Source: Nitrospira sp.
Lineage (GTDB): Bacteria; Nitrospirota; Nitrospiria; Nitrospirales; Nitrospiraceae
NCBI GenBank assembly: GCA_022842445.1
Contig: JALHPO010000003.1
Location: 271,203-335,202 of the forward strand
Reading direction: 5' to 3'
Length of the DNA: 64,000 bases
This document shows positions 13,549 through 30,252 of the stretch, in pieces. The notes under the pieces are model-generated. The model did no database searches and was not told the DNA's origin. It saw only the letters and a list, made by a program, of their open reading frames with translations. Both the position numbers and the translations under genes were made by a program. The stretch's first letter is position 1; each line of letters begins with the position of its first letter.

Positions 13549-13627
<79 letters not shown>

Positions 13628-13696
13628 ACGATATGCTATAATATCAACAACTTATGTCTTTATATAGCTGTATAAAAGTATTATAATCCGAAATAA

Positions 13697-14887
13697 TTGC
13701 GTCACGTGCAGCGCACTATGAGTAACGAGATTATCAAACTTCGTGATGGACGACTGCACATTTTTAAACAACCTGGTTGCCAGAATTACTTTTACCGCTT
13801 CTTTGACAACGGAAAGTACATTACCCGAACAGCGCAGACTAGCAATCTTTCTCTTGCCAAATCAACCGCAGAGAAAGCCTATGACTCCTACCGCTTCAAC
13901 AATCTAAAGCCCGATGGCAAATTCAGTCGCTCCTGGGATGACGCAGAGAAAGGTGTCCTGGCTTCTCTTTCTCTTGAGGAGGAAACGCGGGCATCACGAC
14001 TGAAAACTTACAAGATCAAACTCGGCGTGTTGAGAAAGTTTTTTGGGTCAATGCCGTTGCAGCAGATCAACAAGACAAAAACTATCGAAGAGTACGTGAA
14101 GTGGCGACGGACGGAATATCGGACGCATGTCCATCATGAGGTCGTCACCAACAAGACGCTGCGGCGTGACTTTGATGTGCTACGAGCGGTTCTCAAGTAT
14201 GCGCTACGTGAAGGATGGATTGAAAAGTTGTGTCAGTTGCCGATGTTGAGTGTTACTCCAAAGGCAGGTGGGTGGTTTACGCTGGCAGAATGGAAGCATT
14301 TACAAAAAGTTGCCCGCGAATGGATCGAGCGATCACCAAACGACAAAGAACGCGGGCTCCGAGAATATATTTACGACTACATGATGTTTCTTGTCCACAC
14401 GGGGTTGCGTGTCGATGAAGCCTTTCACGTTCACTATCGAGACATTTCACCCGATGAGAAAGATCCACGGTTCTGCTACATCACGGTTCACGGCGGCAAA
14501 CTCGCATATACCATGAAACCGACTGAGTGTATTGGACTGGTGGGGGCTGTCAGTGCCATCGAGCGACGAAAGAAGGCAAACCCAGAACACAAGCCGAACG
14601 ATTTGCTGTTCCCCTACAATCCGCGAGTGAAATTACATGAATTGCTGGTTGCTGCTGGTCTGGAAAGAGACGAACGAGGAGAGCGACGAACCGCAAAGAA
14701 CTTCCGTCACACCTTCATCATGCTCAGATTGCTCCAAGGGGTCGATGTGTACAAATTGGCAAAGAACTGTCGAACCAGCGTCTCTCAAATCGAGCGCCAC
14801 TATGGTTCCTATATCAGTGCTCGCATGAGTCGAGATGAATTGACTAAGTTCAGCACCCCACCACGCGAGAAAGGAACAACAAGATGA
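13697..14887 (+). CDS. Tyrosine recombinase/phage-type integrase
   Basis: 396 aa; HTGLRVDEAFHVHYRDI, FRHTFIMLRLLQGVDVYKLAKNCRTSVSQIERHYGSY catalytic motifs. Confidence 0.93.
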   Translation: MRHVQRTMSNEIIKLRDGRLHIFKQPGCQNYFYRFFDNGKYITRTAQTSNLSLAKSTAEKAYDSYRFNNLKPDGKFSRSWDDAEKGVLASLSLEEETRASRLKTYKIKLGVLRKFFGSMPLQQINKTKTIEEYVKWRRTEYRTHVHHEVVTNKTLRRDFDVLRAVLKYALREGWIEKLCQLPMLSVTPKAGGWFTLAEWKHLQKVAREWIERSPNDKERGLREYIYDYMMFLVHTGLRVDEAFHVHYRDISPDEKDPRFCYITVHGGKLAYTMKPTECIGLVGAVSAIERRKKANPEHKPNDLLFPYNPRVKLHELLVAAGLERDERGERRTAKNFRHTFIMLRLLQGVDVYKLAKNCRTSVSQIERHYGSYISARMSRDELTKFSTPPREKGTTR

Positions 14888-15474
14888 CAAAGCGAGTTGC
14901 AATCTACGGGCGAGTCTCAACGTCGGGGCAATCAACGGATATCCAAATTCAGGAATGCCGTCAGTATGCAGGACGCTGCGGCTATGAAGTTGTCGCAGAA
15001 TACACCGACACGATCTCAGGCACCACGAGTAAAGATGACCGCGAGGCACTGACTCGGTTATTGAACGATGCGTTTGCCAGGAAATTTGATACCGTGGTCG
15101 TTTTCTCGATAGATCGCGTAGGGCGCAGCCTGAAACATTGCTTAGACATTTTAGAATCACTCAAAGCACATCGCTGCGATTTCATTTCTATCAAGCAACA
15201 GATCGACACCAGTTCTCCCACAGGGCAATTGATCTTCAACATTTTCGCGTGTCTGGCGAACTACGAACGGACCATGATTCTTGAACGAACAGCATTGGGA
15301 CGTGAGAGAGCGAAGGCACGGGGCGTAAAATTCGGGCGACCCTCGAAGATGAACTCCTCAGTCGCGGAAGCTGTGCGTTTACTCCGAGAGAAGGGGGCTG
15401 GGATCAAGGAGATTGCCAAATCCTTAGAAATCGGTGTTGGCTCCGTCTATAAAGCCCTCAAGAGTGCTGCCTGA
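14884..15474 (+). CDS. Serine recombinase (resolvase/invertase family)
   Basis: VAIYGRVSTSGQSTDIQIQEC...FSIDRVGRSLKH...ANYERTMILERTALGRERAKARGVKFGRP + C-terminal HTH; ATGA overlap with integrase. Confidence 0.95.
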   Translation: MTKRVAIYGRVSTSGQSTDIQIQECRQYAGRCGYEVVAEYTDTISGTTSKDDREALTRLLNDAFARKFDTVVVFSIDRVGRSLKHCLDILESLKAHRCDFISIKQQIDTSSPTGQLIFNIFACLANYERTMILERTALGRERAKARGVKFGRPSKMNSSVAEAVRLLREKGAGIKEIAKSLEIGVGSVYKALKSAA

Positions 15475-15569
15475 GGGGTCAGAACGGGGTTCCAAAGTCG
15501 TTCAACGATGCATCCAGACTCCATCTAGTCTTGACACTCTCCCACGAACAACCTAGCCTTTGCCCGACC

Positions 15570-15926
15570 ATGGCTGATCCACTCGACCCCCAGGACGTTG
15601 CCACTATCGAAAAGCTCGCTGCGTCTGGGCTATGGGAACAGGCGGGACTGGTCGAAGCACTGCGGCTCAAGGAGGGACTCGGAAAGCAGGAGATCCTCGA
15701 TGCCCTCGCAGCATTACGCCGAGAAAATCCAGAGGTCGCGCAAACCCAGGAACACTTCCCGGAATCCTCACCCGTGACCGAGATCGAGCGGGAACTTATT
15801 GAGGATATTTTGACGCTGTTCGATGAACAGGGGCTCACCAGAGAGCAAACTCTCCCCCTGTTGGGACAGGTGACGGTCTTGCTTGACCTGGTCAAGCAGA
15901 GGCAGGCTCACAGGAATTCGCAGTAG
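15570..15926 (+). CDS. Hypothetical protein
   Basis: MADPLDPQDVATIEKLAASGLWEQAGLVEALRLKEGLGKQEIL...; no family recognised. Confidence 0.5.
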   Translation: MADPLDPQDVATIEKLAASGLWEQAGLVEALRLKEGLGKQEILDALAALRRENPEVAQTQEHFPESSPVTEIERELIEDILTLFDEQGLTREQTLPLLGQVTVLLDLVKQRQAHRNSQ

Positions 15927-16339
15927 AGGCTGGATACCTTCCCACGGTTGGTCTTGCGCCCTCTTTGCCTCGCTCCTAGAATACGCTTCCCAAAGAGGTT
16001 CCGATGTCTTTCTCTATTCGACCCTACCGTCGCTTCCCTGTGCAATGTTCTGTCATCTATCAGACTGGTCCATTCCAAGGACGGGGCACGGTGTGAAACC
16101 ATGCGGTATGAGATTGTCGATTCTCCAATGCTTTACCTCTGAGGCAAGGATAAACCTGTTCGTTCACAATCTCGCCCCCCTAATCAGCAAAGTATATTTA
16201 TTGCTGAAGCAACGGTGTGATGGGTAGAAGGGAATGAGTATCGGGGCAAAACGAGAAGCCTCGATCGTTATGCCTATGCCAATGTGAGGCTGGAAAATTA
16301 CATCAAACGAATGGTGCAGATTCATCAAGAGAATACCAG

Positions 16340-17035
16340 ATGCTAAAGAAGTTTAGGTCCTTTCTTAGAGAGAAGACATGGGAGTATGTATTCTCCAAAG
16401 CTGTTTGGAGTTGGTTCCTTGGAACTGGTGTCCTTCAAGCCATTCATCCGTGTGAAAACTTTCGTCTATTTCAATACCTTGTTGACTCCTATCAGAAGTG
16501 CTCATCAGTAATATGTTACTTGCGCCAACTTTTGCCTTGTGATGGCGCAAAATCGTATTTCCTCCTCCTCAAATCCGAGGAAACATGGCTCGCCATACTG
16601 TTCATTGCATACATTCCTGCTCTAAACAAAAGAACCGGAAGAACCTATCTTTTTTGGGGAGGTTGGTTGAGTGACATGTTCGTCGCAGCTTCCAGTTGTG
16701 CATTCTTCTTGAGTCTAGGCTATGTGATTAGTGACTGGCAGGCGAATATTCCATTGGCATACGGCAGTCTAATTCTGTTCTCAGTATTTACTTTCGCCAG
16801 TGACCTCAACTTGAGAACCGATAACAAAGACGCTAATACGGCATGTTTTATTTTTTCGGCTTTAATGGGAGGTACGGTTTCATACTTTGAAGGTTCTTGG
16901 TTTCTCAGTGCTCTCGCGCTGGGCTCACTCTACTGCATAATGGCGATCTCCTACATAGACCAATACCGAAATCCTTTTTATAAATTACCGCCGGGCTGGA
17001 AACCATCATTCCCATTAAACAGTCGAAAGCCGTAG
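16340..17035 (+). CDS. Hypothetical multi-pass membrane protein
   Basis: 231 aa with several hydrophobic segments. Confidence 0.6.
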   Translation: MLKKFRSFLREKTWEYVFSKAVWSWFLGTGVLQAIHPCENFRLFQYLVDSYQKCSSVICYLRQLLPCDGAKSYFLLLKSEETWLAILFIAYIPALNKRTGRTYLFWGGWLSDMFVAASSCAFFLSLGYVISDWQANIPLAYGSLILFSVFTFASDLNLRTDNKDANTACFIFSALMGGTVSYFEGSWFLSALALGSLYCIMAISYIDQYRNPFYKLPPGWKPSFPLNSRKP

Positions 17036-17086
17036 GCAAGCGACATTAGAGTGGGAAGGAATAGTAAACAGGAAGCGACATAAGTA

Positions 17087-17434
17087 ATGTCTTTAAGGAT
17101 TCAATATACTACGGGAACGAAAATGGTCCAATTCTCAATGACTATAATTTTGATGTTCCAAACGGCTATTCGGTTTGTATTGGGAAAAACGACGCTGGGA
17201 AATCGCACCTACTGCAACTCATTTGCAGGGAACTTTTCCGTTCGGGATCAACCACCCGCTTGAACATCGCAAGTTCACAATTGCTGAACTCAAGCAAATC
17301 ACCTCGCTCCCTGATGACGTTTAGTTCAGCGACACATGGGAACAACGAGCCGAAAGAATCGGGCGAATGGTGCCACCACTTCTCACAAAGGCGGTCGCAC
17401 AGGCTGTCTATGAGAAAGTGTTGAAACTAGACTA
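17087..17434 (+). pseudogene. Truncated/frameshifted AAA ATPase remnant
   Basis: Frame 17089 reads YYGNENGPILNDYNFDVPNGYSVCIGKNDAGKSHLLQLICREL (Walker A); the ATG at 17087 is in a different frame; no intact ORF follows. Confidence 0.6.
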
Positions 17435-17572
17435 ATTCAGATGATTCTATTTGCCTCGTGACTTGATGAAGAAATTGTAGTTGCCTATATTTCCTCTTGC
17501 TACTCGACCGACAATTCAGCAGCATATACGGACCGCTTCGTAGCGTAAGTCACCTTATGAAGTGAGGCATCA

Positions 17573-18448
17573 ATGGCAGCCACCGACGGGCTCCTTTTTA
17601 TAGACACCACTCAATATCTCAATTTCTACCAAGTTATAAAAGCCAAGAAGTTGCTCAACCTTCTGATCGAACAGAAGGCACAGGTCTTTGTCACTATCCA
17701 AATTGCTGAAGAAGTAGCACGGAATAAGTTGCGAATAGCGGAAAGGTTTCTGGCTGGACATTTCAAAATGCTAGATGTGAACAAATTCAATGTTCCAGAC
17801 CATCTTTTTGACGTATCAGCTTCTACTGCTCAAAAACTGCACCAACTGCTCGATCCAATTGTTCCTCAAATAAATGAAATAAAAGAGACCCTGAAGAACG
17901 CCACTCTTGAGACTCTCGACAGAATCAGCCGTTCGGAGGATGAGGTTACGAAGGCTCTGAATGAAGTATTCCGCAATGCAGTCAGGGAGACAGCAGATGA
18001 ACTGGAGCGGGCTAAGACACGCAAGGAAAGAGGCAAGCCACCAGGTAAGCAAGCAGACCCCCTGGGAGACCAGCTTACTTGGGAGCAGTTGCTAGCCCAA
18101 TGCAAATCACATAACAAGAAAAGGGTTTGGATTATCAGTAGTGATGAAGATTATTACACGAAGCATGATGGCAACCTGTTTTTGAATCCGGTCCTCCGTC
18201 AGGAACTAATGGAGATTGCCGGAACCGAAGCATTCTGCTTTGATAACCTTGACAAGGGCATCAACGACTTCGTGGATAAGATGGGAGTCACAACTGACAA
18301 GCTACCTACCCGCGAGGAATCGAAAGCGATTCAAGATGAACTCGATTCCTTGTCTTCTTATTCTGGGGTACATGCAAGCACAACGGCAGAACTCTCGATA
18401 ACAGGTTACCCTCCTGTCCTGTCGGTGCGTGTCAGCGACACGGTCTAA
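17573..18448 (+). CDS. PIN-like domain protein (DUF4935-type)
   Basis: FIDTTQYLNFYQ...GDQLTWEQLL...VWIISSDEDYYTK...LNPVLRQEL. Confidence 0.75.
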   Translation: MAATDGLLFIDTTQYLNFYQVIKAKKLLNLLIEQKAQVFVTIQIAEEVARNKLRIAERFLAGHFKMLDVNKFNVPDHLFDVSASTAQKLHQLLDPIVPQINEIKETLKNATLETLDRISRSEDEVTKALNEVFRNAVRETADELERAKTRKERGKPPGKQADPLGDQLTWEQLLAQCKSHNKKRVWIISSDEDYYTKHDGNLFLNPVLRQELMEIAGTEAFCFDNLDKGINDFVDKMGVTTDKLPTREESKAIQDELDSLSSYSGVHASTTAELSITGYPPVLSVRVSDTV

Positions 18449-18599
18449 GGGTCTGTCGCGGTTTCACTCGTTCCCTTTATCGATTTTCACACACTCAAGC
18501 AGCATATTTTGGAACTGCTTTTTGAATTGTAGGGTGAGGACTACATTCTTCGAGTAGGCACCCAAGCTAATCCGCTACGATCAGGAGGTTTCTGTTGCA

Positions 18600-19517
18600 A
18601 TGGTTAAGCCAGCTTCAGAATGGACAGAGCAAGATTTACTTTCCCTTATTACAAATGGCGTCGAGGAAAGTAGCGATCTCGAATACAAGCGTAGTGCTGC
18701 ACTGACGGATACCGAGGGTGTGAAGAATGAGATTAGCAAAGATGTTTCATCTCTTGCGAACTCAAATGGTGGGACGATTATTTACGGAATGATCGAGGAA
18801 CAGCATCTTCCTCGGCAGTTAGACGGTATTGATCCTGCCAGGATCACCAAAGAGTGGCTTGAACAAGTTATCAATGGGCGCATTCGCCCTCGGCTGAATG
18901 GTCTGCATATTAACCCCGTCCCTCTAACAACTTCGGCGGTAGGCAAGGTGGTCTACGTCATCAGTGTCCCCCAAAGCGGTACTGCCCATCAGGCAGGGAG
19001 CAAGAGGTACTACAAACGGTTCAATTTTGAATCCGTTCCGATGGAGGATTATGAGATTCGTGACATTATGAATCGCACGAAACATCCTCTTATCGTGCCG
19101 CAATTTTCAAAGAGATTCATTGATCGTCAAGGAGGAGTGCTTGAATATGCCTTGAACATCCATCTTGTGAACAAAGGCTCAGTATCCGCGCATGACCTTA
19201 AGGTCGTGCTTTCTGTACCAAGACAAACATCGAAAGCCGTGAAAGGTTTCAAGCAACATATGATAGAGATTCCTTCACATCTATTTGGTAATCAGTGGTT
19301 GGAAAACTCTTTGAGTGTGAGCAATCAGGTCATTTTCCCTGAGGATGAATGGGAGGTTACTGGAAAGGATCGTGAATTCGTTCTCATCATAGACTCGCGG
19401 TATATCGATCGTGATGAAATGAGAGTTCCCATTCTGTTCTGGAAGACCTATGCGGACGATATGCCACCACAGTCTGGGCAGGTGAGGCTTGGGGAAATAC
19501 CAGATATAGCTGTGTAG
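18600..19517 (+). CDS. AlbA_2/Schlafen-type putative nucleic-acid-binding protein
   Basis: ESSDLEYKRSAA...NEISKDVSSLANSNGGTIIYGMIE... typical AlbA_2 N-terminus. Confidence 0.8.
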   Translation: MVKPASEWTEQDLLSLITNGVEESSDLEYKRSAALTDTEGVKNEISKDVSSLANSNGGTIIYGMIEEQHLPRQLDGIDPARITKEWLEQVINGRIRPRLNGLHINPVPLTTSAVGKVVYVISVPQSGTAHQAGSKRYYKRFNFESVPMEDYEIRDIMNRTKHPLIVPQFSKRFIDRQGGVLEYALNIHLVNKGSVSAHDLKVVLSVPRQTSKAVKGFKQHMIEIPSHLFGNQWLENSLSVSNQVIFPEDEWEVTGKDREFVLIIDSRYIDRDEMRVPILFWKTYADDMPPQSGQVRLGEIPDIAV

Positions 19518-19530
19518 GATTTTCTGGATT

Positions 19531-20184
19531 ATGTCCTCTACTTTAGGGGAGTCTAAGAAGGTACTAGCTGCCTTATTTGTTGTTGATATGGGCAACTACG
19601 ATCGAAACTCTCTTTCCCTACCTGAAACTTTACTAAGCCTTCGTAAAGCGACTCAGGATGTTGAGTTTGTGGGTTATCACAGGCGGCGATCAGGGAACTT
19701 TGTCTTTGTCGATAGTGGAGATAGCTCTCTCGGCACGGCACAACTCATCGGTCAGCGGGTCACACAGCTTCCATGTCTGGTCCGTCGTTACGCTGACTTG
19801 AGAAATGTGAGGCAGGCTGTTCCATCGAAGGCATACACTACTCCACAAGGATCAATTGAAATTGCTACATCAAATGGTCCTCGAAAAATAATCTGGGTAG
19901 GACTCTCTGAGGATGTTCAACAACTCGCACAATTTACGGGATCACTCAACTCCCGAGTCTCTGTTTGTGGGTGGACGAGTGTTCGAGATGTTCTGTGCTT
20001 CTATGATCGACCATCTTCTGGTGGAAATGTGGGGCAGGTTACCAGAGCGATCGAAAAGTCTCTCCGACAGCGCGGCATGAATGATCATATCGTTGCTACA
20101 GGTCGTGCTCTCTCAGTCCTTGGCGATCTCTTGGAAGGGAAAGGTATCACCTGGGTTGCTGGTTTCGATCCAGTAGGTAGCTGA
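19531..20184 (+). CDS. Hypothetical protein (distantly DUF1697-like?)
   Basis: 217 aa; SGNFVFVDS...VRRYADLRNVRQAVP resembles the DUF1697 pattern weakly. Confidence 0.5.
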   Translation: MSSTLGESKKVLAALFVVDMGNYDRNSLSLPETLLSLRKATQDVEFVGYHRRRSGNFVFVDSGDSSLGTAQLIGQRVTQLPCLVRRYADLRNVRQAVPSKAYTTPQGSIEIATSNGPRKIIWVGLSEDVQQLAQFTGSLNSRVSVCGWTSVRDVLCFYDRPSSGGNVGQVTRAIEKSLRQRGMNDHIVATGRALSVLGDLLEGKGITWVAGFDPVGS

Positions 20185-20216
20185 CTGGGAATGGGCACCT
20201 GACTGTACCTGCCCTA

Positions 20217-20438
20217 TCAATCCTGGCACCCATCCTCTTCTTTTTGGAATACCATCCAGATTTTCCCTTGTTCCTCACGGTTCACCATGAAGTCCACTGT
20301 ATTGTCTGACCAATTTCCCAGATCACTTTTGAGTTCTGCCATAAGCCACGACAAATGTGTGATCCGTGGCTCCTGCTGATCTGTTGGGGCTTCGGGGCTC
20401 TCCACCGTCACAATATCCAGGCGCATAGGGCTGTTCAC
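20217..20438 (-). CDS. Small hypothetical protein, operon gene 5
   Basis: 73 aa, ATGA overlap with upstream ORF. Confidence 0.6.
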   Translation of the reverse strand: MNSPMRLDIVTVESPEAPTDQQEPRITHLSWLMAELKSDLGNWSDNTVDFMVNREEQGKIWMVFQKEEDGCQD

Positions 20439-20638
20439 GGCTCCGTCTCCTCTGCTGGCTTGAACTTCACTGAGATGCTGTCGGGTTCAGGTGCATCCAA
20501 GGTCACTTCTGCAACCCATCCGTCCGAATAATTGGCTTCAATCACACGAAGAAGATCACGGACCGTCACCACCAGGACTTCCTGATATTCCGGCACCTGG
20601 GGTTGGCGAATGAATTGCTGGAGGGACATGATTTTCAT
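20435..20638 (-). CDS. Small hypothetical protein, operon gene 4
   Basis: 67 aa, ATGA overlaps at both ends. Confidence 0.6.
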   Translation of the reverse strand: MKIMSLQQFIRQPQVPEYQEVLVVTVRDLLRVIEANYSDGWVAEVTLDAPEPDSISVKFKPAEETEP

Positions 20639-20829
20639 GATTCCTCCCCCTCCAAGACCACAATGATGGCGTTTTTGATTCGTTTATTGCGGCGTAGAGT
20701 GGTTTGAACATCCTTCGCAAAGACGTTCAGGGTTTTCGTGAGGATCGTGGGCTGTAGATCAGGTGACACTTGTTGTTCCAGTAGAGCATTCTGTCGGATG
20801 CGTTTGATCTCTTGGGGTAGTAGTTTCAT
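20635..20829 (-). CDS. Small hypothetical protein, operon gene 3
   Basis: MKLLPQEIKRIRQNALLEQQ..., 64 aa; ATG at 20829 chosen over the long ORF-track start because of ATGA coupling. Confidence 0.6.
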   Translation of the reverse strand: MKLLPQEIKRIRQNALLEQQVSPDLQPTILTKTLNVFAKDVQTTLRRNKRIKNAIIVVLEGEES

Positions 20830-21116
20830 GGTTGCTTCCTTTCTGTCGTCGTACAGGCATTCGTCTGTGGATGCGGGGTGAATGAATTCGCGGTCTTGTT
20901 GATCGCACTGTTCCACTTGTTCACTTGAAGCAAGATCGTCAAGGCTTCGACATTGTCGGCGACAACGGTTGCGGAAATGCTGTGTACCTGGGGCGCGGTG
21001 AGTTCGTCCAGAAGTTCCGACGCACTCAATTCCATTCCTTCGTGGAGGGTCTGCTTGGATTTCTTGATGGTAAATGGTGAGGATCGGGTTTTGAGGCATT
21101 CTTGGAATGTCGGCAT
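20826..21116 (-). CDS. Small hypothetical protein, operon gene 2
   Basis: 96 aa; ATGA overlap with gene 3. Confidence 0.6.
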   Translation of the reverse strand: MPTFQECLKTRSSPFTIKKSKQTLHEGMELSASELLDELTAPQVHSISATVVADNVEALTILLQVNKWNSAINKTANSFTPHPQTNACTTTERKQP

Positions 21117-21130
21117 GGTGTGTCCTTTCG

Positions 21131-21325
21131 TTATAGGTTTTGAATGTTGGGGAGTCTCTTGCGGTAGAAATCCAGAATAGCAGGGCGCTCGACCAGGCGA
21201 ATGATCTCGGCGTGGCGAAGCATGGCTTGGCGGATGAATTGACTGCGCGACACATAAATCTCCTCACAGAGCCTATCGGTTTCTTCCAAGAGTTTGGTGG
21301 GGATTCTGAGTAGAATACTCGGCAT
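21131..21325 (-). CDS. Ribbon-helix-helix (CopG/Arc-like) protein, operon gene 1
   Basis: MPSILLRIPTKLLEETDRLCEEIYVSRSQFIRQAMLRHAE. Confidence 0.75.
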   Translation of the reverse strand: MPSILLRIPTKLLEETDRLCEEIYVSRSQFIRQAMLRHAEIIRLVERPAILDFYRKRLPNIQNL

Positions 21326-21640
21326 ATAAACGGTGTCCTCAATTGCGCATATCGTTTGTATTTAGGTTTCTCGGCATCTCAGGTGCCTGAAGACCTGGTG
21401 TTCGCGGTATTCGCTTTGTGAAGGTAGGCTTCATTCAGTGGAGTTCGGTCTGGGTGTTTAGGAAGCGGTAACAATTTTCTCACGATGATCGTGATACCCA
21501 AGACCTGGAGTGTTCCGTGCCTTCACGGAATTCTAGATTTCATGGCTACAGACGTGATGTTCTGGGACGATGGGTCTGCTGAACGCCAGGGTTCTTGGGC
21601 GATATCAAACGCCTATAAATATTCGCAGGGAGATGACGCC

Positions 21641-22705
21641 ATGGAACAGAAAGCAATCAGTCTGCAAGACCTTCGTAGGCGGTCAACAAAGGAGATTGAA
21701 CGGCTACGGAAAGTAACGTCGTTCAAGGTCGGCGACTGGAAACGAACGCGATTGGAGAAAGCACTCGGTAAACGATTGGCAACAGCCACTTTGCTGGATG
21801 ATGGTACGCACCAGGAACACACGGAACTCATGGTTCGGCGATTCCAGAAACACTGGGGCGCTCTCACGAAGGACGAAGCCACAGAGCGGCTCAGATTTCT
21901 CACGATACTGGACAGATTAGTAGAGGTCGATGCCGACGCAATGGTGGACGCCTGTGACCATCTGATGGTGTGGATCAAACATGCACTCAACACCGAATTG
22001 CGCCACATCGGGATTATTGGCTGTGTGGAAATGGAAATTGTGAACCTCAGTCACAGTGAGAAGAAAACCATGGGGTCAAAGAAGATTACTCATGCACTAC
22101 GTGGTTCACGGGCAACGTCGTCACTCTCGATCCCTTCACTGGACGAGAATGAACATCGCAAACTGAATGTCTTGCGGGCGATGCGAGATCACGTGGCTCC
22201 CAACACCCTCTGGAGTCCAACTGACAACACGAAGAGTTGGGTCTTGATACATTTTCACGGTGTGGTTCATCTCGGCGGGACGGCTGACGAGATTGATACC
22301 CTTCATGAGCGGGTTGCCAAGAAACTCAGGCGACATTGGAATCTTCCTTATGCCGTGGAACTGAAGAAAACATTTGATAAACAACAGTCACGGACAAAGT
22401 TTGCGAAAATCGCTGATTACATCACGAAATGTGGCAACGAGCGGTTGCGGTATGAGACTCGGTTTGGTCGCGGTATGTCTCAGATCGATGTGACTGAACG
22501 CGCCATGTGGAAGCAGGGGTACCGCGGTATTGACGAAGTGGAGGGAGAAGAGAGTGCGATGGAGGATAGCGTCGGATTGACTCTGGGTGAAGTCGAAGCG
22601 TTAGGCAAAGCGATTGATCGCCTGATGAAACGGAACCGTCGCAGGGATGGGTATGTGCTGCAAATCGGTCGTTTCAACGGTCTCTCTCGGCAGTATTCCC
22701 GCTGA
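21641..22705 (+). CDS. Candidate HUH endonuclease (replication initiator/relaxase-like)
   Basis: WVLIHFHGVVHL (HUH at 22250-22258) and ADYITK (YxxK at 22418-22429). Confidence 0.6.
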   Translation: MEQKAISLQDLRRRSTKEIERLRKVTSFKVGDWKRTRLEKALGKRLATATLLDDGTHQEHTELMVRRFQKHWGALTKDEATERLRFLTILDRLVEVDADAMVDACDHLMVWIKHALNTELRHIGIIGCVEMEIVNLSHSEKKTMGSKKITHALRGSRATSSLSIPSLDENEHRKLNVLRAMRDHVAPNTLWSPTDNTKSWVLIHFHGVVHLGGTADEIDTLHERVAKKLRRHWNLPYAVELKKTFDKQQSRTKFAKIADYITKCGNERLRYETRFGRGMSQIDVTERAMWKQGYRGIDEVEGEESAMEDSVGLTLGEVEALGKAIDRLMKRNRRRDGYVLQIGRFNGLSRQYSR

Positions 22706-22999
22706 ATTACTCATACACTACGTGCGGATCAACCCAGTTCAGAGTATGGTCCAAATAGGGACAACGGTTCTGGTGGAATCAGGGGTTTCTGGCGAGTCCC
22801 AGTGTCTGGAAGGTGGTAAATCAGTAGACTGCCGTGAGTTCAACAAGTCGGTAGCGAGCGACCTGTAAAATCTCAATGAAATCAATCGATTGCTGTTGAG
22901 TGTGAATTTTATGAAAAAGTGCAATAAATTCATGTGCTTGCGTGACGTGGATACTTGATGGGGGATTAGCTTTTAGAATGTTTTGAATTTCAGCAATCC

Positions 23000-24271
23000 C
23001 TAAACTTCCCTGATACAAGATGCTTCCCTAAGCCATCGGAAGATCCATCCGTCTGGCTTGGCTAGTTCCACTTCCTGAGCGAACTTGATTAATCGCTTTT
23101 TGGAGTAGACTTTACCGCCTAAACTCCCATGCCGAGCATCTGAACTATCCTTTTCTAGAACCTTGAGCTTTGGAATGGTGCTTAGTATTGTTGCAGCACT
23201 CTTAATCAAGCTATCGATCCGCCACCCTTGGATTAAAGCACGGTTAGTCGAACTCTTTATTTCTTTGGGGTTCAGAACATCATAGATCTGATTGATCGAT
23301 AGGTCGTGCTTATAATGTCCCAAGTTTATAGTGCCCACCTTGTTTTTCACTAAAGCCCAAACCTTGCTGTTAAATTCAGCCTCAATCGCTTTTTGACAAG
23401 CGACAGGAATGCACCAAAAGAAACTATCTCTCAGAGCGGGCGTTCTCATAAAGACCACGGCATCAACGAGTGCACTCCACGCCTCATCACACAGCTTGTT
23501 CCGCAAGCTGTTGTTTTGAGGATGTAGCCATTCTTCAGCCTGTAACCTTTCTTCTCGAATATTGACCCCAGCCCTTAATCGATCAACCTCAAACTTGGCA
23601 TTCTCTAAATCATTGACGGTCTCGCGTAACTCATTCTTCAGAAGAACTACCACTTCGGGCAAATCTATGGTTGTAACCTCGCCACTGTCTCGCGTGATGG
23701 TTTCAGCAAGTATTTGCGTCGCACATCGGAATAATTCACCATCGACCTCACTCGTTGAGCAGAATCTCCTAACATCAGCAAAGAGATCCCGCACCCGACT
23801 ATACTCGCCAAGATCGCTATACACATCCATCATCTCAAGCAAGTAATCATAGCCAAGTCCGCAATCATCCTTGTGAGCTTCGATATCCAATGCCTCATAC
23901 ACGGCGGCGGCGTGGTGGAGTTGACCACGTTCTTGGTACCACCGTGCAATAGCCCATGTTGCGAGGGTCGTCATCCCTACCTTCTTCTCTTCCAGAAAGT
24001 CACTCCATGACTTCATTCTCGTCTCTGGCGACACGGATCGAGAGGTGAAGGATAACCGTTCCATGAGGTCGTCACATTCACGGGGAAGGCAGTCCTCGGA
24101 CAAATCTTCAAGGATCTGCTTCAGCACGTTCAGAATTTGGTCGTCTCCCTGCGCACTTGCTATATCAGATAGACCTATTCGGGGCGGGGGGAACTGACCC
24201 GTCTGTATTAAATCCAAAATATTCAGAACAGTATATTGCCGATCCTCTTCTTCGCCAGCCATAATACCCAC
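23000..24271 (-). CDS. Uncharacterised helical/TPR-like protein downstream of mrr
   Basis: 423 aa; GTG start directly follows the mrr stop. Confidence 0.7.
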   Translation of the reverse strand: MGIMAGEEEDRQYTVLNILDLIQTGQFPPPRIGLSDIASAQGDDQILNVLKQILEDLSEDCLPRECDDLMERLSFTSRSVSPETRMKSWSDFLEEKKVGMTTLATWAIARWYQERGQLHHAAAVYEALDIEAHKDDCGLGYDYLLEMMDVYSDLGEYSRVRDLFADVRRFCSTSEVDGELFRCATQILAETITRDSGEVTTIDLPEVVVLLKNELRETVNDLENAKFEVDRLRAGVNIREERLQAEEWLHPQNNSLRNKLCDEAWSALVDAVVFMRTPALRDSFFWCIPVACQKAIEAEFNSKVWALVKNKVGTINLGHYKHDLSINQIYDVLNPKEIKSSTNRALIQGWRIDSLIKSAATILSTIPKLKVLEKDSSDARHGSLGGKVYSKKRLIKFAQEVELAKPDGWIFRWLREASCIREV

Positions 24272-25170
24272 CTAATCTTCTGCAAAATAATCGGAGTCGA
24301 TCCGTTTTACTTGGAAAGTTGCTGTTGTGGTCGTCCCCAATCCGTGATCGATCATCAATTCAGCGAGCATACGTCCATCGATCAGAATAACCTTGGGGTC
24401 GATTGTCTCAACATAATTCTTGGCGTCCTCCGAAAACTTGCCCGTGGTGATGAACACACCTTTCTTGGCTCGCTTGCCATGGAGGGCTCCGACAAACTTT
24501 TGAACTTCAGGTCTACCGACTGTGCCTTCCCAACGCTTCGCTTGCAGGTAAACCAAATCCAGTCCAAGGCGATCTTCCTTGATAATACCGTCGATTCCTT
24601 CATCTCCTGTGCCACCAATAGATTTTCCTGCATCAGCGCGTGACCCTCCATACCCCATGGCGACCATCAGATCAACGACTAATCGTTCAAAAAACTGAGG
24701 CGAATTGCTCGCAATGCGTTGCACGACCTGACTGGCGAGATCACCTCGAATGCTCTCATAGGATTTCTGAAGCGTTTCCTCTGGCGTCTCCTTGGAGGGT
24801 TCTTGTTCTTCTTCCTTGGGGGATTTTGCTTTATGGAACTCAAGAAACTCTGGATATTGATTGAGGATTCTTATGTCGATTCGCTTGTGACCTGCCTTGT
24901 GTAGGTCCATACCCCGTTGAGTAATGCGAAACATACTACGCCGTGGTGACTCCAAGACTTTCGCCTGGATGAAATAACTCTTCGCCCACGCCACTCGATT
25001 TTCAAATTTCGTCTGAATTCCGCTTGGAAGAGGCTCTTTCAAGTCCGCTTCGGGCAACGCCATAACCTTGGCGATCACCTCTCTCGCTTCCTGGATGGAA
25101 TGCTCTTTCCCGTCTGCGGCAAGATCAAGCAGCGGCTTGAAGAAACTCTGAAAGTCCGGAACTGCCATCG
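24272..25170 (-). CDS. mrr: Mrr-type restriction endonuclease (type IV)
   Basis: FFERLVVDLMVAMGYGG...GTGDEGIDGIIKEDRLGLDLVYLQAKRWEGTVGRPEVQKFVGAL. Confidence 0.93.
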
Positions 25171-25459
25171 GGTGATTCCTTTCCCAAGAGCGAGAAGAAA
25201 TGTTGCACCACACGACCTTCCTGTAGGAACTGCGGGAGTGTGCCCCCGCTTGTGGAAAAGGTCAAATTAAACTTGGACCAGATTCGCGGCATCTATTATT
25301 GGGTACATGGGCTGGTCGTTATGGATGATTACGAAGCGTCTGTGTGGATATTGCGAGCGAGGTGAGGGCGTCATTGACAACAAGGAACCCTTCGACAATG
25401 ACTCTCACTTTCCCGAGGCAATTGACGTGAGTAGCCAGCTTGGTATTGTATTGGGTTTG

Positions 25460-25978
25460 TCAGGCTCGGTTGTTCCAATGACACTCAGTAATTTCCCAAC
25501 CTTCAGCGAACAGCCGAAGAACAACCCATTTCGTGGCGCTCATTGGTGGGCTAGAGGGGGCTTTCAATGGGTCTCTCCCAGAACATACTAGACGGATCGT
25601 TCTAATGCTGGAACCCTGATGCGTCAAACTCTTTTTTATGGCAGCAGTTGGCTTCCCCTGATTACCGTTGTGTTTGGGAGCCCGATTGATGTGCGTTGCC
25701 ACGTCAAGAAGTATTGCCTCCGCTAGTTCGGCATACGACTTTTGTCGAGTTTTCGATTTTATCTTGGTTTCTATCAAGGCAATAACGCCATCAATTGGGC
25801 GAGCCGCCCACGGCTTTCTCATATGATCAGCGAACCGTTGCAGCACGTTTCCCTCGCCCAGATACGATGGAACTACCTTTGCCTTACCACTCCACAAGAC
25901 ATATACGCCGATTTCATCATAGATATCAGTCAACGTAATCTCAGATAGACGAATGAAGTGAAGTTTTATCGTGAGCAT
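25460..25978 (-). CDS. GIY-YIG-like nuclease-domain protein
   Basis: GVYVLWSGKAKVVPSYLGEGNVLQRFADHM. Confidence 0.65.
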   Translation of the reverse strand: MLTIKLHFIRLSEITLTDIYDEIGVYVLWSGKAKVVPSYLGEGNVLQRFADHMRKPWAARPIDGVIALIETKIKSKTRQKSYAELAEAILLDVATHINRAPKHNGNQGKPTAAIKKSLTHQGSSIRTIRLVCSGRDPLKAPSSPPMSATKWVVLRLFAEGWEITECHWNNRA

Positions 25979-26347
25979 GTTTGTACCATCCAGGAAGCCC
26001 AAGCAGCAGAACTGCTAATCTCGTTCGTAAGAGTATGTCCCCAAGAGAGATGGGGCAAATCATTTCGCTTCTTCTGTGGGTATGCGGTGGAGATCACTTC
26101 AGATTGAAGGACACTGAACGACTAATTGGGCAGGATGGCTTCGCGGCGCCTTGAGGGGAATGCGCAGGTCGCCAGGGATGATTTCGAAGAACGTCGGCGT
26201 GTCTACTGCGAGCGTGGCGTAGTTGCTATACGAGACTGTGAGAGGGGCTATCGTCAGACAACTATCCCAATCTTTTAAGACTGGCGTCATTCAAGGATTA
26301 GTGGTAAGTACGCCTCCCATACAAGCATCTAGGAAGGGAGGCTGATA

Positions 26348-27196
26348 ATGGGATCTGCTTTTAATGCTCTGCACAAATTTGTATTCCAGGCAAAGAATGG
26401 TGCGTATTCCGTTATCACTTCAAAAGATGAAGCCAAGAAGGGACAAATCACACTGACTGGATATGAGACTAAACTTGTAGAAGATTATTTTGGGAAGGAG
26501 AAGATTCATAAAGGATCTGCCAAATCCGACCCCGCCAAGTCCACAAAAGCATTTTTTATTTATAACAAGAAATCTGAAGGTCAACTTAAGCTAACTTATC
26601 CGAAGCCAAACAAAGAGGAACTACGCTTATACATGAACGCTCATCAGGGGTTTCGCCCTGAGGCGGGTGACATATGGTTTGTATACAAACCTGAGGACCA
26701 ACATAAGCCACTTGTAGTTGGTTCAATGAAACCTGGTGAATGGGAATCACTCGGGTCAAAAGATGAGGGCGATGAGGAGTATCAAGGCATCATAAATTCA
26801 CCGCCCGCAGCGGCTCCCCCTAAAACTAAAACCACCACTGGGTATGAGAGGAAGAGAGAGATAGCTTTAGGTAAAATGAAACAAGCATCTTATAGGTGCC
26901 AAGCAGACGATACTCACATAACTTTTATATCCCCCGTTACAGGAAATAACTTTGTAGAGCCACATCACCTTATTCCGATGAAAGCACAATCCGATTTCAC
27001 CAATAGTCTCGATGTAAAAGAAAACATTGTTGTGCTGTGCCCAAATTGCCACAGAAAGATTCATTTAGCTGGGCACAGTGAAAAGGAAGAAATGCTGAAT
27101 TACTTTTACCAAGATTTGTCCGCTGGTCTACAAAAGCAGGGACTAGAGATAACATTTGACGGGCTGAAGACCTATTACAACCTCCTCAAGACATAA
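26348..27196 (+). CDS. HNH restriction endonuclease
   Basis: EPHHLIPM...LDVKENIVVLCPNCHRKIH. Confidence 0.82.
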   Translation: MGSAFNALHKFVFQAKNGAYSVITSKDEAKKGQITLTGYETKLVEDYFGKEKIHKGSAKSDPAKSTKAFFIYNKKSEGQLKLTYPKPNKEELRLYMNAHQGFRPEAGDIWFVYKPEDQHKPLVVGSMKPGEWESLGSKDEGDEEYQGIINSPPAAAPPKTKTTTGYERKREIALGKMKQASYRCQADDTHITFISPVTGNNFVEPHHLIPMKAQSDFTNSLDVKENIVVLCPNCHRKIHLAGHSEKEEMLNYFYQDLSAGLQKQGLEITFDGLKTYYNLLKT

Positions 27197-27199
27197 GAA

Positions 27200-27622
27200 A
27201 TGGACATTGTAGATAAGGACAAGCGAAGTCTAATTATGTCGCGTATCAGAGGAACTGATACCGCTCCAGAGAAGACGGTCCGATCAATTTTGCACCGCTT
27301 GGGGTTCAGGTATAGGCTCCATGTGAAAGACCTTCCCGGCAAGCCAGATATAGTAATGCGTAAATACACGACCGCAATATTCGTTCACGGCTGCTTCTGG
27401 CATCAGCATAAGGATTGTATAGATGGGGCGTTACCCAAGAGCAATACAGCATTTTGGAAAGGTAAGTTGAATGGTAACGTGGAAAGGGATCTGAAGAATC
27501 TGGCGCTTCTTCGCAATGGAGGATGGAAAGTTTGTGTTGTATGGGAATGTGAGTTGAAAGACAGGGGGAGGTTGACTCAAAAACTTAAAGATCTATTTAG
27601 GGCTAAGCTTTCGACCAGCTAG
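27200..27622 (+). CDS. vsr: Very short patch repair endonuclease Vsr
   Basis: RSLIMSRIRGTDTAPEKTVRSILHRLGFRYRLHVKDLPGKPDIV...IFVHGCFWHQH. Confidence 0.96.
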   Translation: MDIVDKDKRSLIMSRIRGTDTAPEKTVRSILHRLGFRYRLHVKDLPGKPDIVMRKYTTAIFVHGCFWHQHKDCIDGALPKSNTAFWKGKLNGNVERDLKNLALLRNGGWKVCVVWECELKDRGRLTQKLKDLFRAKLSTS

Positions 27623-28891
27623 GCTTTTCCCAAAACGAGCCGCAAGCAGCTTCGCTATCTTGGTTACTACCGGAACGACAACGGAATTGCCAAACTGCTT
27701 GTAAGCGGGAGTGTCCGTGTCTGGCAATCTAAACTCCTCCGGGAATCCTAGTAATCGCGCACATTCTCTTGGTGTCAACTTACGCGGGTTTTTACCCTTC
27801 TGTGGAATCAGACATTCTTTTCCATCCTTCCCATAGCGGGCGACCAAAGTATTGGAGGGCTTGTCAAGGATTGCCGTGTGAGCGGTAAAGCCTGTACCCC
27901 TCGCCAAGTTTCTCTCGGTTCGCCTTTGATGCCCGAGCCACAGGCGGCGCGATATTGTATAGGAACGCGGTGGCTCCGGTTCCAGAATCGACCTTAATGG
28001 CAACGGATTACCCTTGAATTCAGGAATGTCGAATTCCTTTTCCCCATGCAAAGCGACCATAAAGCACCGTGCCCTATTTTGAGGAACAACCGTCTTTGCA
28101 TTAATAATCTTGTATGAAAAGGAATAGCCGAGGTCTCTGACCGTCTGCTCAATTACGGAGAAGGTTTTCCCCTTATCATGGAGGACCAGATTTTTTACAT
28201 TTTCCAATATCATGACCGCGGGTTTCTTGACTGCCGCGACCCTCACAATATTGAAGAATAGAGTGCCTTGTGTTTCGCAAGCAAATCCGTGCTTAAGACC
28301 AATAGAGTTTCTGGCTGAAACTCCAGCACGACTAAACGGCTGACAAGGAAAGCCAGCGCAAAGAATGTCGTGATTGGGAATAAAGTCACGGACTTGATCG
28401 TCAGCTAGGTGTTCGCCACTAAAAATATTAATGTCACCAAAAGGGAACTCTCCAAAGTTTCGATAATAGGTTTCCTTGGCGGATTTATCCCATTCGCTTG
28501 AGAAAACGCATTGTCCTCCGACAGATTGGAGGGCTAAGCGGAACCCTCCTATTCCGGCAAATAAGTCTATAAATCGGAAAGAGCCGACACTGGTGGGAGG
28601 AAAGGGAATGCGTTCGTAGAGTATAAAGAGTTCATGTCGCCCATCGACAAGCTTAGTTGATTCTCTGCGTCTGCCCAATGCGGGATAGGACTGCTCAAAT
28701 AGTCTTGCCACCCATTTGTCTCGAAGTTCTTTGTCACCGAATAACGGTATGGTTAATGGATGCTGGAGCCAACTACTGATAGATGCATTCCTTTCGGAAT
28801 GATGCGCGAGCGGATGACCTAGTTCTCTTGTCAAAATCTTCAATGCCGTAACAGCCTCGTCGAAATGAATCTGTCTGATAGTTGACTTCAC
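27593..28891 (-). CDS. dcm: DNA (cytosine-5-)-methyltransferase
   Basis: FIDLFAGIGGFRLAL, GFPCQPFSRAG, VMILENVKNL, YKQFGNSVVVPV. Confidence 0.96.
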   Translation of the reverse strand: MKSTIRQIHFDEAVTALKILTRELGHPLAHHSERNASISSWLQHPLTIPLFGDKELRDKWVARLFEQSYPALGRRRESTKLVDGRHELFILYERIPFPPTSVGSFRFIDLFAGIGGFRLALQSVGGQCVFSSEWDKSAKETYYRNFGEFPFGDINIFSGEHLADDQVRDFIPNHDILCAGFPCQPFSRAGVSARNSIGLKHGFACETQGTLFFNIVRVAAVKKPAVMILENVKNLVLHDKGKTFSVIEQTVRDLGYSFSYKIINAKTVVPQNRARCFMVALHGEKEFDIPEFKGNPLPLRSILEPEPPRSYTISRRLWLGHQRRTERNLARGTGFTAHTAILDKPSNTLVARYGKDGKECLIPQKGKNPRKLTPRECARLLGFPEEFRLPDTDTPAYKQFGNSVVVPVVTKIAKLLAARFGKSLAGRKLSPK

Positions 28892-29084
28892 TCTGCTATC
28901 TCTTGGCTTATAAGATTAAGCTGCCTGTCTAATCGTAGACATTCTGCCGTTTGTTGGCAATGGCGTCGTGATGCAAGTTATTCTTCATAGAACATAACTG
29001 TCTTCCCTCACCAGGATACTGTCCTGTTTGCGGTGGCGCATTGGAAGAGAAAGCGAGTATAAGCAGGTAAGTTTTTAGTGTAGT

Positions 29085-29327
29085 TCATGCTCGTCTTTCT
29101 GCTTTGGCGACCGCGTATCGTGCCAAGTCACAGATGGATGCCCCGCTGAGTTCTCCGTTATCCTCCAAGTCATCGTCTCCGAGTAAATCCACCATCGATT
29201 TCAAGGCGACATAGAGGATTGGCGCTGCTTCTTTATCACTGTCCCCGATCAAGTCAAGCATTGCTTTCAGCGCCTCGTGAAGGACGGGGGCGGCTTCTTT
29301 GTCTATATCTGCATCCAGTTGCTCCAT
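29085..29327 (-). CDS. Small acidic protein with two internal repeats
   Basis: DKEAAPVLHEALKAMLDLIGDS / DKEAAPILYVALKSMVDLLGDD. Confidence 0.6.
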   Translation of the reverse strand: MEQLDADIDKEAAPVLHEALKAMLDLIGDSDKEAAPILYVALKSMVDLLGDDDLEDNGELSGASICDLARYAVAKAERRA

Positions 29328-29660
29328 GACGTACCTCCCAAAGATTTTGCGATGCTAACACTACCCCCCCCACCATGCAATCTGCCTTGCCCCACCAGAA
29401 TAGTGCCTTGTTCGCGGCACCAAGCTGTCTCAATCAACGACTGAAAGTTTGACAGAGAGAAATGAAGGAAAGTTCTCTTCGTGTAGAGGGAGATGAAAGA
29501 CGAGCCAGAGAAACCCAAGGGAGAGCAGTCTTATGTAGTTTGGGGAGAAAATGAGGGGAAAAAAGAACGGATACTTACATAACCGAGTTACATAAAATAT
29601 TTGGTCGTACTGAATACATGATTATTATCAATAAGTTGTTGAGTATTTTCAAATATTTTG

Positions 29661-29678
29661 ACTGAGCTACGGGCGCAC
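29661..29678. repeat. att-like direct repeat, right copy
   Basis: actgagctacgggcgcac, a copy of the tRNA-Arg 5' end. Confidence 0.9.
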
Positions 29679-29751
29679 GTGTGCTACATGAATCATGTTA
29701 TGCGAAGGCTTGTCAAGAATACGATCCGATACCACAGGCAGCACTCACGGG

Positions 29752-30252
29752 TTACAGCCGGGCAAGAATTTCGTCTGCAATCTGCACGATCGGCCGCCCA
29801 TCGGTTGCAATGACATGATCAGCCGCAGCCTCATACTTCGGGGTTCGCTCACGCAAAACATCCTGCACTTCGTCGATGAACGACTTGGTGCCCGTCAGTG
29901 AAGGGCGTTGCGTATCTCGTCCGATGCGTTTCATGATTGTTTCCACCGAGGCCGTCAGCCAGAAAATGGTGCCTGCAGTTTTCAGCCTGTCGACATTTTC
30001 CGGTCGAAGGATTGCACCTCCCCCTGTATCGATAACCAGTCCATCCTCATGTGCCATATCCCGGCAAACCTGAGATTCAAGATCACGAAAATAGTCCCAC
30101 CCATGCTGCGCGACAATCTCAGGTATGCTCTGACCGGCTCGTTTCACAACCTCCGCATCAGTCGATACCATGGTTCGGCCAAGGCGCGAGGCCACCATCT
30201 TCCCTACGGTGCTCTTCCCGGTCCCACGGTACCCGATGAGCACGACGTTCAT
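29752..30252 (-). CDS. aroK: Shikimate kinase
   Basis: VVLIGYRGTGKSTVGKMVA...VIDTGGGAIL. Confidence 0.95.
   Translation of the reverse strand: MNVVLIGYRGTGKSTVGKMVASRLGRTMVSTDAEVVKRAGQSIPEIVAQHGWDYFRDLESQVCRDMAHEDGLVIDTGGGAILRPENVDRLKTAGTIFWLTASVETIMKRIGRDTQRPSLTGTKSFIDEVQDVLRERTPKYEAAADHVIATDGRPIVQIADEILARL

Follow-up and report, generated by a model that had tools for sequence, protein, structure and literature searches.

Nearly all mobile elements that target tRNA genes insert on the 3' side and leave the host promoter in place, and a tyrosine recombinase with a tRNA gene at the element border is also found in the tycheposons, where recombinase and site define the family. In a review of the field, recombinant tRNA genes of bacteria are described as retaining their original promoter with very few exceptions, and in archaea the pTN3-like elements integrate through the 5' half of the tRNA gene, which puts the tRNA under the integrase promoter (PMC8371274). 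Among the tDNA islands compiled in Islander, 159 of 3919 carry a 5' tDNA fragment, and the crossovers fall into classes at the anticodon loop and at the T loop or T-acceptor junction (PMC4383910). Upstream regions can also be exchanged at protein genes; for example, the insertion of dusA-associated islands replaces the region upstream of the gene, with promoter-like sites present both before and after insertion (PMC4482086). In ICEKp1-type elements, the element can draw on a host tRNA promoter while integrated and on a different one once excised (PMC13023037). A further solution is that of Fionnbharth, whose tRNA-dependent lysogeny relies on a complete tRNA gene that the phage carries together with a promoter for it (PMC10865867).

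The locus considered here lies in a window of 64,000 nucleotides of a Nitrospira genome (a draft assembly of 32 contigs), in which an element is inserted at the 5' end of tRNA-Arg(TCG) (Table 1). Like the Islander islands with a 5' fragment, it combines a tyrosine integrase, an intact tRNA gene and a displaced 5' fragment upstream, with the island between them; in the terms of the Islander definition, the intact tRNA gene and its cognate fragment flank the island, the integrase gene lies inside the interval, the 5' fragment is upstream of the tRNA gene and in the same orientation, and the length of 16.0 kb falls within 2–200 kb. Unlike the Islander subsites (anticodon loop, T loop, T-acceptor junction), the core shared by the window element and its sisters is tRNA positions 1–12. 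As in the pTN3-like elements, attB lies in the 5' half of the tRNA gene and the rebuilt tRNA is parted from its original promoter, but there the integrase gene is split and its promoter drives the tRNA, whereas the window element has an unbroken integrase gene that diverges from the tRNA. The dusA islands likewise swap an upstream region by inserting at the 5' end of a gene, although their target is a protein gene and their integrase family is a different one. In ICEKp1-type elements, in contrast, integration is on the 3' side, the tRNA retains its promoter and the integrase gene is downstream of the tRNA. Like Fionnbharth, the element must safeguard the supply of the tRNA that it targets; unlike that phage, it holds no copy of its own of the disrupted tRNA, and an ARAGORN scan inside the element found no tRNA gene. 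What is new here is a 5'-end variant from bacteria in which the integrase gene points away from the tRNA and crossover takes place in the acceptor/D-arm segment; 5'-end tDNA islands were already known.

Table 1. Features of the element and of its insertion site, in window coordinates.
Feature	Position	Strand	Remarks
tRNA-Arg(TCG)	13549..13625	minus	reconstituted; single copy in genome
Attachment core, left copy	13610..13627	minus	tRNA positions -2 to 16; identical to 29661-29678
Integrative element body	13626..29660		16.0 kb; defence-type cargo
Divergent region	13626..13717		92 bp, AT-rich (67%); tRNA to integrase ATG
Left arm repeat	13644..13655	plus	TCAACAACTTAT; adjoins TATTAT
Tyrosine integrase	13718..14887	plus	389 aa
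Serine resolvase	14884..15474	plus	overlaps integrase gene
PIN domain gene	17573-18448		element cargo
Schlafen-like gene	18600-19517		element cargo
Mrr	24272-25213		Mrr-like type IV restriction enzyme; element cargo
HNH gene	26348-27196		element cargo
Vsr gene	27200-27622		element cargo
C5-methyltransferase	27593-28891		element cargo
Most distal predicted ORF	29085..29327	minus	80 aa, no family; downstream of stranded promoter
Right arm repeat	29631..29642	minus	mirror of left; ~18 nt from core
Attachment core, right copy	29661..29678	minus	tRNA 5' fragment left at original site
Ancestral tRNA-Arg promoter	29677..29716	minus	TTGACA (29716-29711) and TGnTT region; stranded, pointing into element
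aroK (shikimate kinase)	29752..30252	minus	original upstream neighbour of tRNA

Our best explanation, which we hold with good confidence, is that an element integrating at the 5' end displaced the ancestral tRNA promoter and that the element side now drives the tRNA. The tyrosine integrase would recombine at the tRNA 5' end, within positions 1–12, and not on the usual 3' side. Comparison shows that insertion into an aroK–promoter–tRNA-Arg(TCG) arrangement rebuilt a complete tRNA beside the integrase gene, stranded a 16-nt tRNA stub and the original promoter at the far end, and left the tRNA with a 92-bp AT-rich region, divergent to the integrase gene, in exchange for a promoter that elsewhere in the genus is invariant.

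The junctions themselves are plain. At the empty sites of relatives, tRNA-Arg(TCG) comes immediately after aroK; in the window it is the far junction, with its 16-nt tRNA copy, that adjoins aroK. There, GCGCCCGTAGCTCAGT at 29676-29661 is an exact copy of tRNA positions 1–16, and the identity extends 2 nt further upstream of tRNA position 1. A sequence-only reading of this DNA had described TTGACA at 29716-29711 on the minus strand, with the tRNA 5' end repeated after a spacer of ~33 nt, and had proposed that the insertion separates the tRNA from its ancestral promoter. The arrangement is as described, with 34 nt (29710-29677) between TTGACA and GCGCCCGTAGCTCAGT, and empty sites, sister elements and relics together make a strong case for the proposed separation. 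A second copy of tRNA-Arg(TCG), which that reading had proposed looking for, was sought in the genome, and the gene is single-copy; another Arg tRNA of the same genome is Arg(ACG).

How general is the displaced promoter? Among 79 Nitrospira genomes, the exact tRNA-Arg(TCG) sequence occurs in 68, one copy each, and a perfect TTGACA stands 32–36 nt upstream of it in 62 of the 68, which is to say at 62 of 62 uninterrupted loci. The six loci that lack it are those of the window genome, of G005, where a sister element sits at the tRNA, of G012, G017 and G085, where integrase remnants of a decayed element adjoin the tRNA, and of G022, where there is a contig break: one contig begins one base ahead of the tRNA (start of L203), and the aroK contig (L202) stops exactly where the core GCGCCCGTAGCTCAGT ends. 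Since TTGACA is found genus-wide and is missing only together with an element, a relic or a contig break, we identify the TTGACA at 29716-29711 as the displaced ancestral promoter. Across 41 upstream sequences that differ from one another, TTGACA never varies and a TGnTT block, beginning 15 nt after it, hardly does, which suggests a promoter of the extended -10 type for tRNA-Arg(TCG) across the genus. Of the earlier description of a perfect -35 with a weak -10, the first half stands, but the second is too simple, given an almost invariant block that resembles an extended -10. The ancestral promoter has a sigma-70 score of 7.64, a value that 4% of its shuffles reach, and from its conservation and position we infer that the right-junction sequence is an active promoter. 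Separately, the aroK site of two genomes (L010 in G015 and L021 in G014) is occupied by another tRNA body whose anticodon is TCG (GGACTTCGGATCC) and which follows a TTGACA region of the same type; it is perhaps a replaced or converted tRNA gene. The break in G022 has the pattern expected for the presence of an element or for a mixed population.

The element is not alone in its choice of site. Among named records, the nearest integrases are all from Nitrospira; at tRNA-Ala(CGC) (L090, a Nitrospira lenta record, and L091) and at tRNA-Lys(TTT) (L092/G087) the integrase gene starts near the tRNA 5' end and reads away from it, and the integrases at these two tRNA types are 45–57% identical. Both junctions were found for sisters at tRNA-Arg (G005), tRNA-Ala (L090, L091) and tRNA-Lys (G087), and the far junctions of the tRNA-Ala and tRNA-Lys elements carry the matching tRNA 5' fragments. 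The sisters at tRNA-Ala and tRNA-Lys measure 6.1, 7.1 and about 15.9 kb beside the 16.0 kb of the window element, and all that is common to the cores of the four elements is tRNA positions 1–12 (acceptor 5' strand to D-stem). The recurrence of this layout bears on the trivial possibility that the element was misjoined to the tRNA locus during assembly. The genome is, after all, a draft of 32 contigs, and an att repeat can break an assembly, as in G022; against this, the same junction design occurs independently in G005, L090, L091, G087 and the relics, and a mirrored arm repeat spans the predicted attP, so that we consider an artefact extremely improbable.

Several further observations belong to the element and its relatives. 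The G+C content of the element interval is below that of the flanks. The cargo between 23000 and 28891 of the window is of the defence type, and the Mrr-like enzyme has an unknown partner upstream. A small ORF on the minus strand (21134-21361) has relatives (30–56%) in all three sister elements and is a candidate for a conserved element gene. The resolvase partner of the integrase is found at 84–85% identity in the sister elements of L091 and G087. A 205-aa protein with an HAHLL-type motif is 74% identical between L091 (4763-5380, minus) and L200 (11013-11624, plus); a PHROGs search with it gave no match, and it is possibly related to replication or transfer. Integrases at 35% identity or less (from Alphaproteobacteria, Acidobacteria and others) lie at tRNA 3' ends or just upstream of the 5' ends of tRNA-Leu and tRNA-Ser. 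At L103, L112, L146, L156, L164, L165, L166 and L167 (about 9.4–11.4 kb), such a distant integrase stands alone between a tRNA 5' fragment and an intact tRNA; these units of ~1.4–1.5 kb, at tRNA-Leu(CAA) or tRNA-Ser, have the integrase pointing toward the tRNA and resemble 5'-end insertions made up of an integrase only. Searched by sequence against the PDB, the window integrase gave no useful match, and the exact attL/attP sequence had no match in viral contigs.

The arm repeat deserves separate mention. It is a 12-nt inverted repeat between the element ends that arose in 0 of 200 shuffles, and related motifs occur in three sister elements. The motif was taken from the window element and then scanned in the sisters, with five hits, a count that overstates their independence because one of them lies in the G005 left end, which is near-identical to that of the window element. 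TCAACAACTTAT is probably an arm-type binding site of the integrase.

From where, then, is the tRNA transcribed? A single-copy tRNA, a gap of 92 bp and survival alongside decayed elements together point to element DNA as the source of the transcription signals, and a replacement promoter from the element is therefore likely by necessity of the layout; the 92-bp region must hold the present promoter of the tRNA unless an antisense promoter lies inside the integrase gene. In our preferred reading, the 92-bp region, or antisense DNA just past it, would drive the tRNA. The sequence-only reading had gone further and pointed to TATTAT (13643-13638, minus strand), 12 nt ahead of tRNA position 1, as part of an element-supplied promoter. 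The box is where it was said to be, and a specific replacement promoter, TATATA-17-TATTAT, maintained by the element, can be entertained as a tentative possibility: TATTAT is at the right distance from the tRNA and identical in the sister element of G005, and the absolute score of the pair, 6.68, exceeds the median of 4.5 for host tRNA upstream regions. Although this is the best sigma-70-like site in the 92 bp, same-composition shuffles have a mean of 7.00 and reach 6.68 in 54% of cases; moreover, the box is not retained in the relic and in the Ala and Lys elements, and its conservation may be explained by the adjoining arm repeat. An element-supplied promoter in general is thus likely by layout, but TATTAT as its -10 finds no support beyond base composition and has the arm motif beside it.

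Neither is a recognisably strong tRNA promoter to be found in the elements generally: by sigma-70 scoring, element-side upstream regions came out above their shuffles in 0 of the 8 cases scored, and we rejected that candidate. A consensus promoter scan found 19 sites against 18.7 expected, a count at chance level that tells nothing either way. Between the window element and that of G005, the 40 tRNA-proximal nt are 97% identical while the integrase gene is 81% identical, and these 40 nt are thus constrained; integrase binding at the arm site alone could explain such constraint in live elements. The same stretch bears on where an alternative start might lie. Given 92 bp that are without a strong site, the tRNA might be made by read-through or from an antisense promoter within the gene for the integrase or the resolvase, but near the tRNA no predicted gene reads toward it, and the constraint between the two elements is strongest precisely in the 40 tRNA-proximal nt; we regard an origin beyond the 92-bp region as quite unlikely.

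The decayed elements show what becomes of the arrangement with time. In G012, G017 and G085, broken integrase remnants still flank the tRNA on its element side. Next to aroK, the promoter and a degraded tRNA stub survive in G085 and G030; in G017 a stub survives, and TTGACA has become GTGACA. In the relic genomes aroK and the tRNA are on separate contigs, and in G012 both are far from contig ends. G012 and G017 have an internal deletion in common and probably represent a single event. With relic remnants by the tRNA and an orphan promoter or stub at aroK, the promoter swap has been long-lasting at least once, and the decayed-element genomes suggest that it can turn permanent. In these relics, in which binding by the integrase has ceased to matter, the element-side stretch adjoining the tRNA is 65% conserved as against 80% for the dead integrase gene (G085 being misaligned near the tRNA in the five-way alignment, its proximal identities are left out). 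We had considered relic conservation as proof of selection on the promoter, and rejected it on this ground; together with the chance-level score, a stretch that falls below a dead gene in conservation gives no indication that any one promoter sequence is under selection.

The relics also speak to whether the tRNA is expressed at all. No recognisable promoter stands beside it, and other Arg tRNAs, such as Arg(ACG) in the window genome and the tRNA-Arg(CCG) found in G012, could read its codons, so that tRNA-Arg(TCG) might be little or not expressed during integration, a state that the relic lineages would tolerate. Yet the tRNA is exactly conserved in G012, G017 and G085 despite the integrase pseudogene, which argues that it is under selection and presumably expressed, and we judge silence of the gene to be highly unlikely. 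An argument for expression from essentiality was rejected in turn, because of Arg(CCG) in G012, and for the same reason tRNA-Arg(TCG) may not be strictly essential.

Turning to the far end, the sequence-only reading had also suggested that the old promoter may read into the right end of the element. In 4 of 4 elements, the far-end gene is read from the junction inward, which is also the way the stranded promoter points; were orientations random, this would happen by chance 1 time in 16. The far-end gene of L091 resembles an excisionase or regulator. Inward-facing far-end genes are weak evidence compatible with promoter capture, and it is possible that the stranded promoter reads into the right end and may feed the distal element genes.

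That the element regulates the tRNA is conjecture. An integrase bound to the arm site, beside the putative -10, could interfere with a tRNA promoter there. The most far-reaching version is a reciprocal promoter exchange, in which an integrase-divergent promoter overlapped by arm sites would control the single-copy tRNA and the captured host promoter would drive the distal genes, so that the supply of the tRNA would be tied to what the integrase does and losing the element would carry a cost; taken as a whole, we think this scenario unlikely.

The arrangement is a rare one, since elements of this sort mostly enter the opposite end of the tRNA gene and spare the promoter, and here an integrase subfamily does the reverse repeatedly, within a single genus of bacteria and at tRNA genes of three types. 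With its empty, filled and decayed sites, the genus Nitrospira shows, in the manner of a natural experiment, how a tRNA gene gets by after losing a promoter that elsewhere in the genus never varies. As such, these loci bear on whether mobile elements can durably control a translation gene.
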